From Chitinophagaceae bacterium (GTDB taxonomy: Bacteria > Bacteroidota > Bacteroidia > Chitinophagales > Chitinophagaceae): 64,000 nucleotides of DNA. Where the stretch lies: NCBI GenBank assembly GCA_025449935.1, contig JANWIJ010000029.1, positions 1 through 64,000 of the forward strand, read 5' to 3'. Shown here one piece after another: positions 26,256 to 29,080 of this stretch. The notes under the pieces are model-generated. The model worked only from the letters and a program-made list of their open reading frames with translations. It did not search any database and was not told where the DNA came from. A program made the position numbers and the translations under genes. Each line of letters opens with the position of its first letter. Position 1 is the stretch's first letter.

Positions 26256-28670
26256 ATGAGAAAAAGTATATTTTTTTTTGCTGCCATCCTTTTCGTTTTT
26301 ACAGCTGTGGCCCAGGATAAATCGATCCAGGGCATACTGGCGGGGAATGTGATGGATGATAAAAAGAAGGCCCTGGAAGGAGCTACTGTTCAACTCGTTT
26401 CCCTGGCGGATAGTATTAATAAGCAATCCATTCAAACTGACAAGACCGGTCAATTCGGGTTTACAGGGATCCATTTTGGTTATTATAAGCTTACCATCAG
26501 TTATATCGGGTTACAAACACTGACACTTGACAGCATTTATTTCAGGACGGAGCGGTATGATTTTAACCTGACGGATATTACCCTGGAACCCCGTTTAACC
26601 GACAAACTTGAAACGGTAGTGATCTATGCCGAGAAACCGTTAATACAGTCCAAGGATGGTAACATTACTTTTAATGCTGGTGAATCGGCACTGGCAGCGG
26701 GAAGTAACGCGAGTGACCTGCTGACAAATGTTCCATTGGTCGCAAAAGATCCGGATGGCAAAATAACGGTGAGGGGTAAAGAACCAAAAATTTTGATTGA
26801 TGATAAACCAGTGGAGTTGAACCTGCAGCAGTTGCAGGATTTATTAGAATCATTACCGGGCAGTTCTATTGAGAAAATAGAAGTGATGACCAACCCGCCG
26901 CCCCAGTATGCCAATGAGCAGGGAGGCGTAATCAATATTATTACCAAAAAAGGAAAAGTAGGTGTCAACGGGAGAATTTCAGTGACGGCTGGTACACGGG
27001 GTGAAGCTACTTTTAATGGAAGCTTTACTTACCGGAAGCAGGGGTTGGCGATCAATATTAATGCAGGAGGGGGGTATAACAGGTATGAAGGAAACGGTTA
27101 TACGGTCCGGAATAACCATTATGCGGACTCTTCCAATTTTTTTAATACCACGAATGATTACACGAATAAAAGTTTCAGACCGAATTTCCGGGTAAATATT
27201 GACTACGACATCAATAAGAACAACCTGCTGAACTTCACCTTCAATTATAACCAGAACAGCTACGACAATACCAGTCAGACAGAATACAGGAATGTCAACC
27301 GGTTTGATGAATTATGGCGGCTTAGCCAGCGTTTTGTCCGCAGCCAGGGTGATAATTACAGCCCCAACCTTAGCCTTAGCTATACCTGGAAAGGCAAACC
27401 AGGAGAAACATTAAAGATCATCACGGGGTTCAGCTATTCGTCGAATCAAAGCGACCGTGATTTTTACCAGGAATTTTTTAACCCCGACCATACTCCAAAC
27501 GGGATTGATTCGACACAGGAGCAGTTAAATGACACGAAGATCAACGGAAATAATATAAGGGTCAACTATGATAAAATGCTGGCTAACAAAAAGACATTCC
27601 TGTCGCTGGGAACAGCTTACAGCAGGAATAATAACCACGTGATTGTGGAGGCCAGCTACAAAAAGAAACCCGAGGGCGTTATGGAGAAACTCGAGCTGCT
27701 CAGCAACGATTTCTGGTTTCACCAGACGGTCAGCAACCTGCGTGGATCTGTAAAACAAATACTCGGTGAGAATTTCAGCTTTACTGCCGGAACCGCTGTT
27801 GAAAAAACCGCAATCTGGTTTGAATTATTAAAAGATGGAAAAGATGTCAGGAATAATTACTGGACCTGGCTGCCCTTTGCCAATATTAATAAAACGTGGA
27901 AGGAAAAACTAAACCTGACAGTTGCCTACCGCCGGAGCATCAACCGGCCCGGTATTGGTCACCTGAACCCCACTATTGATTTTTCAGATCCATACAATAT
28001 CCGTTTTGGTAATGAGAAATTAGAAGCTTCGACCGCACATAATTTTGATTTTATTATCGGGAGAACGAAACAAAAATATTATGTGAACCTTGGAACAGGG
28101 TATAATATTGTCCAGGATGTTTTCAGCCAGGTGAGAACCCTGTTGCCGGAGGGTAAAACGCAGATCACCTGGGAAAATATCAGCGGGCGGAAAGAATACG
28201 AAGTAAGCAGCTGGAACGGGGTTACCCTTACAAAAAAATTGAAAGTCAATGCCAGTGCCAGTTACACTTACAGCAAGTACAGTGCGTTTGATATAGCCGT
28301 GCGAAAATTCCGCAATGGCGGTTCTTTTACCTCCAATATCAACAGCAGCTTTACTCCCACCGACCTGTGGAGCATAACGGGTGGTTTTAATGTAAACAGG
28401 TTTGGTAACCCGCAGGGTTTTGCCCGCTGGAATACGAGTATGAATATGGGCGTACAGAAAAAATTCCTTAATAAACGCCTGGTCGCCACGGTCAATATCA
28501 TTGACCCGTTTGTGAACCAGCAACGGAGGATATTTACCTATGGAACTAATTTCAACCTGGAAAGTTATAGTGTAACCAATACGCGGAATTTCCGGCTGAG
28601 CCTTGCTTACAATTTTACCAAACAGCAAAAGAAGAAACCCGTATTACTGAAAACTATAAAACCATCCTGA
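26256..28670 (+). CDS. Outer membrane beta-barrel / TonB-dependent receptor-like protein
   Basis: Signal peptide, CarboxypepD_reg-like domain, plug-like PLVAKDPDGKITVRGKEPKILIDDKPV and beta-barrel C-terminus. Confidence 0.88.
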   Translation: MRKSIFFFAAILFVFTAVAQDKSIQGILAGNVMDDKKKALEGATVQLVSLADSINKQSIQTDKTGQFGFTGIHFGYYKLTISYIGLQTLTLDSIYFRTERYDFNLTDITLEPRLTDKLETVVIYAEKPLIQSKDGNITFNAGESALAAGSNASDLLTNVPLVAKDPDGKITVRGKEPKILIDDKPVELNLQQLQDLLESLPGSSIEKIEVMTNPPPQYANEQGGVINIITKKGKVGVNGRISVTAGTRGEATFNGSFTYRKQGLAININAGGGYNRYEGNGYTVRNNHYADSSNFFNTTNDYTNKSFRPNFRVNIDYDINKNNLLNFTFNYNQNSYDNTSQTEYRNVNRFDELWRLSQRFVRSQGDNYSPNLSLSYTWKGKPGETLKIITGFSYSSNQSDRDFYQEFFNPDHTPNGIDSTQEQLNDTKINGNNIRVNYDKMLANKKTFLSLGTAYSRNNNHVIVEASYKKKPEGVMEKLELLSNDFWFHQTVSNLRGSVKQILGENFSFTAGTAVEKTAIWFELLKDGKDVRNNYWTWLPFANINKTWKEKLNLTVAYRRSINRPGIGHLNPTIDFSDPYNIRFGNEKLEASTAHNFDFIIGRTKQKYYVNLGTGYNIVQDVFSQVRTLLPEGKTQITWENISGRKEYEVSSWNGVTLTKKLKVNASASYTYSKYSAFDIAVRKFRNGGSFTSNINSSFTPTDLWSITGGFNVNRFGNPQGFARWNTSMNMGVQKKFLNKRLVATVNIIDPFVNQQRRIFTYGTNFNLESYSVTNTRNFRLSLAYNFTKQQKKKPVLLKTIKPS

Positions 28671-28682
28671 TGGATGGTTGCA

Positions 28683-28703
28683 GAGCGGAAGACCGGACTC
28701 GAA
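28683..28703 (-). repeat. Copy of tRNA-Gly 3' end (T arm to acceptor)
   Basis: gagcggaagaccggactcgaa, identical to 29007-29027. Confidence 0.95.
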
Positions 28704-28704
28704 T

Positions 28705-28750
28705 GCCGGCGCTAAAGGCCGGCACCGGGACCGGCAGAGCCGCGTCCCGG
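28705..28750. repeat. GC-rich inverted repeats / hairpins
   Basis: GCCGGC-gctaaag-GCCGGC (28705-28723) and CCGGGAC-CGGC-aga-GCCG-c-GTCCCGG (28725-28750). Confidence 0.8.
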
Positions 28751-29001
28751 CCGGGCGTCACTTTGTTTTTCAATGAAGCGCCTTAGCTTTTCTCTATTCA
28801 TATTTTTTAATTTTCGCTCCACCGCATAGCCTCACTTCTGGTTGGCTTTTGAATGCTGCAGATGATATCCCAGGGGAGATAGGATGAAGTAAATTTCTCA
28901 TAACCCTTGTTATGACGTTCGATTCGTAGCGTTAAATCCGAAGTCTGCCCGATATAAAAAATATCATGCGAATGGCTATACAGAATGTAGACCAGGAACA
29001 T
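28712..29001 (-). pseudogene. GIY-YIG nuclease-like gene with 1-nt frameshift
   Basis: MFLVYILYSHSHDIFYIGQTSDLTLRIERHNKGYEKFTSSYLPWDIICSIQKPTRSEA then, after a one-base shift at ATGCGGTGG, AVERKLKNMNREKLRRFIEKQSDARPGRGSAGPGAGL*. Confidence 0.75.
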
Positions 29002-29004
29002 TGT

Positions 29005-29080
29005 TGGAGCGGAAGACCGGACTCGAACCGGCTACCTACAGCTTGGGAAGCTGTCGCTCTACCAGGTGAGCTACTTCCGC
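29005..29080 (-). tRNA. tRNA-Gly(CCC) with encoded CCA
   Basis: GCGGAAG-TA-GCTC...GAGC-G-ACAGC-TTCCCAA-GCTGT...GCCGG-TTCGAGT-CCGGT-CTTCCGC-T-CCA; perfect cloverleaf. Confidence 0.95.

Follow-up and report, generated by a model that had tools for sequence, protein, structure and literature searches.

The window (the whole stretch of 64,000 nucleotides that was analysed) carries on its minus strand a tRNA-Gly(CCC) gene followed by an ORF for a small GIY-YIG nuclease, as the earlier note on this DNA had proposed (Table 1). The tRNA is recognised by ARAGORN, and the ORF matches Pfam PF01541 with an E-value of 6.5e-11. The CCA that the note had read as encoded at the end of this tRNA is indeed there, but it looks coincidental, as the tRNA-Gly(CCC) genes of relatives end in ..CTC without CCA. 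The element as a whole measures about 320 bases and sits on the end of the tRNA-Gly gene.

Table 1. Features at and around the tRNA-Gly(CCC) locus of the window.
Feature	Position	Strand	Remarks
Upstream flanking gene, 172 aa	29107..29625	-	Also directly before the empty-site tRNA-Gly in L068-L071
Intact tRNA-Gly(CCC)	29005..29080	-	The functional copy; precedes the nuclease gene
GIY-YIG nuclease ORF as read, 64 aa	28807..29001	-	Starts 3 nt after the tRNA; frameshifted ahead of the catalytic Glu
Remainder of the nuclease coding region, shifted frame	28712..28822	-	Ends within hairpin 2; matches ..EKKLKNLNRIKLLQFIEK.. of L027
Hairpin 1 (NNNNGAC..inner stem..GTCNNNN)	28725..28750	-	Compensatory changes, 12 sequences
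Hairpin 2 (consensus TGCNGAC..GTCNGCA; window TGCCGGC..GCCGGCA)	28704..28724	-	Borders directly on the tRNA copy, at its T-loop end
Displaced 3' end of the original tRNA gene (positions 54-74, from T-loop to acceptor; exact copy)	28683..28703	-	Identical to 29007-29027
Terminator hairpin and T tail 3' of the displaced tRNA end	28658..28679	-	Read from the sequence; probably the original tRNA-Gly terminator
Downstream flanking gene, outer-membrane beta-barrel	26256..28670	+	Also after the empty-site tRNA-Gly in L066

In its first frame the nuclease ORF stops at 28807, and the conserved continuation (VERKLKNMNREKLRRFIEKQSDA...) is read in a shifted frame from 28822. This shifted frame, which includes ..VERKLKNMNREKLRRFIEKQ.., runs to a stop at 28712-28714, inside hairpin 2 and 8 nt before the tRNA copy; this is the restored stop of which the earlier note spoke. 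Since the frameshift removes E63, a Glu that is invariant among intact relatives, the nuclease copy in the window is decayed and probably inactive. No terminator lies between tRNA-Gly and the ORF in the window, and most relatives have one at this place.

Both the exact 21-nt duplicate of the tRNA 3' end and the GC-rich hairpins just inside it were found as described before. The duplicate was the sole such copy in a search of the genome, and the chance recurrence of a 21-mer within 400 bp is not expected. The hairpins are two in number and fold with a predicted energy of -21.4 kcal/mol (z -2.9).

Small GIY-YIG genes and their tRNA neighbours

The genome that contains the window has eight matches to PF01541, of which two are long (UvrC- or DnaQ-like in length), one is a fragment and five are small. 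Each of the five small, near-full-length genes immediately follows a tRNA of the same orientation (Leu-CAA, Phe-GAA, Val-TAC, Pro-TGG and Gly-CCC). The survey was extended to loci from 149 genomes of the order and from close relatives, and an intact tRNA was found within 250 nt of 72 of 140 small GIY-YIG ORFs, which were chosen as the best-scoring PF01541 matches and are thus no random sample of GIY-YIG genes. The tRNA lay upstream in 54 cases and downstream in 18, never on the opposite strand, and more than 20 anticodons were represented. Control loci of long UvrC/DnaQ-type GIY-YIG proteins included none with an intact tRNA. The enrichment of small GIY-YIG genes beside tRNAs, for which the earlier note had proposed a survey, is massive, and the tRNA parts found with them are duplicated and broken.

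The proteins are about 80 aa long and consist of a single domain. Y5, Y16, R26, H30 and E63 are invariant in the intact members of the alignment, which places them in the GIY-YIG superfamily. A tree of 135 of these proteins separates a clade of 45 without tRNA from some 90 that are nearly all tRNA-linked; 10 members of the latter group have no tRNA recognised by ARAGORN, and most of these retain tRNA fragments. We also considered whether the loci without tRNA are hosted by other non-coding RNA genes, and rejected this candidate, as 20 such loci gave no Rfam match.

The choice of tRNA follows the protein tree: tRNA isotype requires 25 changes on it, against a mean of 46 and a minimum of 40 after shuffling, a signal that may combine vertical inheritance with repeated homing within isoacceptor clades. 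One of these clades was followed further with 79 loci, fetched from a named collection by means of the Met-clade alignment (Pedobacter, Cyclobacterium, Niastella, Balneola, Alkaliflexus, KSB1 and others). A tRNA was present within 250 nt in 63 of them, none on the opposite strand, and all 62 typed tRNAs were Met(CAT). Three Niabella ginsengisoli loci (L240, L241 and L247), whose contigs are identical over more than 4 kb and appear to be assembly duplicates in the public record, were left out as three copies. A phage origin was rejected, as the same alignment found 493 relatives in genome contigs and, among 2.9 million viral contigs, no more than 3 weak matches.

Broken tRNA copies and their hairpins

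In homologous units the downstream copy of the tRNA is interrupted by one or more hairpins, while an uninterrupted copy stays in the unit. Where the copy is in two pieces (46 loci), the break holds a hairpin in 43 cases; random segments of equal length contain one in 85 of 920 (9%). Its type and the site of the break co-vary with the nuclease clade. At many loci of the Arg/Leu group, CCTGCC..GGCAGG is cleanly inserted between adjacent tRNA bases; at Met and Phe loci, positions 37-48 or the D-arm are mostly replaced by TCCGCC..GGCGGA; and Val, Asp, Asn and Ala loci have TCCCG..CGGGA or a close variant. In the Met clade the break falls near the anticodon (mostly 36-38|47-51). In the clade of the window it falls right before the T-loop sequence TTCGA, which is common to nearly all tRNAs, and members of this clade, L027 among them, stand beside tRNA genes for Gly, Lys, Leu, Asp, Val and Pro. 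A break at the anticodon thus goes with a single isoacceptor and a break at the T-loop with many, so that break site and target range agree, as would be expected if the break marks the recognition site of the nuclease. No other observation argues as strongly for homing, although the argument is an indirect one.

The hairpins themselves are conserved as structures. Across 12 sequences of the window clade, every cell in the arms of both hairpins is paired (100%), and both partners have changed in 33 cells, compared with 10 in shuffles; the arms were picked by hand and concatenated, so that these numbers demonstrate complementarity and are not an independent discovery of structure. Changes on both sides occur at 7 of 14 pairs, and all slid controls collapse. 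Likewise, 99 instances of the Met-clade palindrome from 62 loci keep their complementarity through paired changes from C-G to T-A. The Met-type palindrome was also considered as a high-copy REP in the genome of the window, a candidate that was dropped because only 4 exact sites were found. The hairpins are an integral, conserved part of the element, which refines the description given in the earlier note; the break of the second tRNA copy with a hairpin at the break, the compensatory changes, and the dependence of break site and hairpin type on the clade are new with respect to it.

Broken 5' copies of the tRNA also occur upstream at many loci, some of them in tandem. Hairpin-broken 5' parts precede the intact tRNA five times at L004 (tRNA-Pro, with a period of 47 bp), three times at L044 (tRNA-Met) and four times at L152 (tRNA-Asn), and these arrays do not fit a simple one-step insertion. 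Two solitary fragments were also observed. In G169 (C3:23830-23850), an exact fragment of tRNA-Lys, positions 54-74, broken at the T-loop like the copy in the window, lies far from the tRNA-Lys gene at C3:78475. At L195, a palindrome-broken 5' fragment of tRNA-Leu, perhaps a scar, lies next to an intact tRNA-Leu(GAG), and no nuclease gene accompanies them.

Filled and empty sites and a candidate homing mechanism

Empty alleles, for which the earlier note had proposed a search, were found. In L068-L071 the orthologous tRNA-Gly(CCC) gene is preceded by the upstream gene of the window, and both the nuclease and the second tRNA copy are absent. In G004 (L066) a tRNA identical to that of the window over 74 nt is shortly followed by the downstream gene of the window. 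The comparison is most complete at a tRNA-Lys(TTT) locus of five congeners, where both flanks are shared (a gene of 312 aa upstream and a dehydrogenase-like gene of 271 aa downstream). This site is filled in L291 and L298 and empty in L286, L293 and L294. As the two filled sites carry GIY-YIG genes of different clades, this locus has gained an element on two separate occasions. Filled and empty alleles at a homologous site, as looked for in a homing element, are therefore seen at both tRNA-Lys and tRNA-Gly, and reveal gain and loss. Further, L009, L015, L018 and L030 have unlike terminators in the two places, ahead of the nuclease gene and after the displaced tRNA end, a hint that the former is supplied by the element itself.

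We think it likely, from the sequences compared here, that the window contains a decayed copy of a minimal, chromosomal selfish element of homing type that lives in tRNA genes, and that its nuclease recognises the segment now holding the hairpin. The unit would comprise the 3' part of a tRNA, which keeps the tRNA functional, a terminator (absent in the window), the single-domain GIY-YIG gene and one or more clade-specific hairpins; after it would come the end of the original tRNA gene, now displaced, and the terminator of that gene. The nuclease would recognise and cut a tRNA gene where the hairpin later sits, and repair from an element-bearing template, by way of tRNA homology on both sides, would copy the element in. 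The intact tRNA within the unit would keep the host alive. Since an intact tRNA with the presumed target persists in the same genome, self-cutting must somehow be avoided. The hairpin-broken copy may lack the recognition sequence or may be recognised as the element's own end, the hairpin serving to mark or protect it. Spread between species would have occurred by horizontal transfer, and many copies of the element, that of the window included, have decayed. The proposal of a mobile or homing unit made in the earlier note is thereby supported as to mobility, but the target would not be the tRNA 3' end as such: it would be a clade-specific spot, the T-loop here and the D-arm or anticodon arm elsewhere.

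Other origins can be proposed for the same features. Integrative islands in tRNA genes use tyrosine integrases, restore the 3' end of the tRNA and leave the displaced end as a direct repeat, and the elements described here share with them the tRNA gene as site, the restored tRNA and a duplicated 3' end resembling attL and attR. That the window holds a remnant of such an element, with the 21-nt repeat as its att sites, is nevertheless very improbable: no integrase family was found in the scanned ORFs of the window, the tRNA copies are typically only a few hundred bp apart with GIY-YIG as the only shared gene and, in a typical unit, the only coding frame between them, hairpins sit at the junction, and the break falls in the D-, anticodon or T-arm according to the nuclease clade. 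We also give little credence to a domesticated enzyme that serves the host at tRNA genes, in tRNA processing, in surveillance or as an addiction pair with its tRNA. The tight placement of the genes behind tRNAs of the same strand, where they are often perhaps co-transcribed, would suit such a role, but their patchy presence in close relatives, the tandem and decayed copies, the broken tRNA copies and the many isoacceptors would not.

More weight has to be given to the dispersal of the palindromes. The Arg/Leu-clade palindrome, CCTGCCTG-N4-CAGGCAGG, has 32 sites with at most 2 mismatches in the genome of the window, against none in the control; two of them lie in the tRNA-Leu element, and others in frame in coding genes or in the solo broken tRNA-Leu remnant of L195. 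The hairpins could be REP-like palindromes of the ordinary kind that owe their insertion to another enzyme (a RAYT/Y1 transposase) or to repair errors, with the tRNA duplication arising independently and the GIY-YIG gene hitchhiking. Y1 transposases are present in 8 of 10 genomes checked, but none (PF01797; HUH, RAYT-type) was found in the genome of the window or in G008, both rated 100% complete and both carrying elements. Moreover, hairpin type, break site and nuclease clade travel together, and among 149 genomes the presence of the Arg/Leu palindrome tracks the Arg/Leu-type nuclease (9/22 against 7/127, p = 4e-5; 12/54 against 4/95, p = 0.001, at a looser cut-off), with p values that ignore phylogeny and a threshold picked after the list had been viewed. 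We therefore regard an origin of the hairpins as unrelated REP-like insertions as unlikely.

Known systems and the repeats of a tRNA-free sister clade

The system nearest to the homing-type element proposed here is SegB, which, as other free-standing GIY-YIG homing endonucleases of T-even and other phages, is often found beside tRNA genes of many isoacceptors (PMC13096335). SegB is phage-borne and promotes phage tRNA regions; it has been implicated in cutting within tRNA-containing sequence and drives the tandem amplification of tRNA and nuclease, and no isotype preference has been reported for it (PMC13096335). The GIY-YIG gene beside tRNAs and the tandem units are common to both, but the elements in Bacteroidota are chromosomal, encode about 80 aa, are bound to isoacceptors by clade and are tied to a hairpin-broken tRNA copy.

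REP and REPIN sequences go with RAYT (Y1) transposases (PMC2817692, PMC3116915), and palindromes tagged with CGTC or GTAG are also known (PMC3733652). Small palindromes accompanying a single nuclease gene, and dispersed copies, are seen in our elements as well, with a GIY-YIG enzyme in place of the HUH/Y1 enzyme and, in the tRNA-linked class, with the palindrome placed in a tRNA copy. The likeness extends to the tRNA-free sister clade, whose GIY-YIG genes lie between repeats as RAYT genes do. Upstream and downstream flanks share 13-mers in 35 of 44 of these loci, compared to 0 of 16 controls and 37 of 500 cross-locus pairs. At L046, L047, L064, L014, L016, L037, L040 and others, the gene has dispersed REP-like repeats on both sides, which often begin with GTCATNC. 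In G152, the palindrome CCCCGAGCGAAGCCGAGGGG has 40 matches with at most 2 mismatches, and 6 of the 10 best lie within 1 kb of a GIY-YIG gene of this clade. By analogy, GIY-YIG may play for these repeats the role that RAYT plays for REPs. A broader reading of the sequences, which we put forward only tentatively, is that the small GIY-YIG nucleases of Bacteroidota could be a second, HUH-independent machinery spreading REP-like palindromes. The tRNA-linked sub-clades would each have their own hairpin and tRNA arm, the sister clade would act between GTCATNC-tagged repeats, and both would insert or copy their cognate hairpins.

The family is apparently undescribed, and very widespread in Bacteroidota. 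In the literature covered, which lies outside most subscription journals, we found no paper joining GIY-YIG with REP palindromes or with tRNA-gene homing in Bacteroidetes, and the 2006 survey of GIY-YIG proteins (PMC1564403) has no mention of YhbQ, Bacteroid- or palindrom-. If the proposed mechanism is right, hundreds of species would carry unnoticed selfish elements of a few hundred bp that prey on essential tRNA genes, the host being spared by the intact copy. They would also amount to a natural collection of nucleases, each about 80 aa long, in which the preference for a tRNA and an arm could be read from the break site, making their specificity directly testable. Further, they would be a candidate answer to the question of what moves REP-like palindromes in genomes without RAYT, and may lie behind many of the strange annotations that small GIY-YIG proteins and pseudo-tRNAs have received in Bacteroidota.

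In Rickettsia palindromic elements and mitochondrial double-hairpin elements, too, hairpins have entered genes, among them those for RNA, or stand in frame within coding genes, and no nuclease is known to be linked to them. The PAGRQ-type frames of L193 and L194 are comparable: in these coding genes the dispersed palindrome CCTGCCTG..CAGGCAGG is read in frame as ..LPAGRQ..; the frame of L194 goes on with VVMSGIRPTGFLHLG, which looks like tryptophanyl-tRNA synthetase. Finally, upstream of tRNA-Gly in L066 and L067, CCTGCC..GGCAGG is inserted into the loop of a second hairpin, itself dispersed (CTTCGCTAAA..GCTACGGAG), so that the palindromes are nested.
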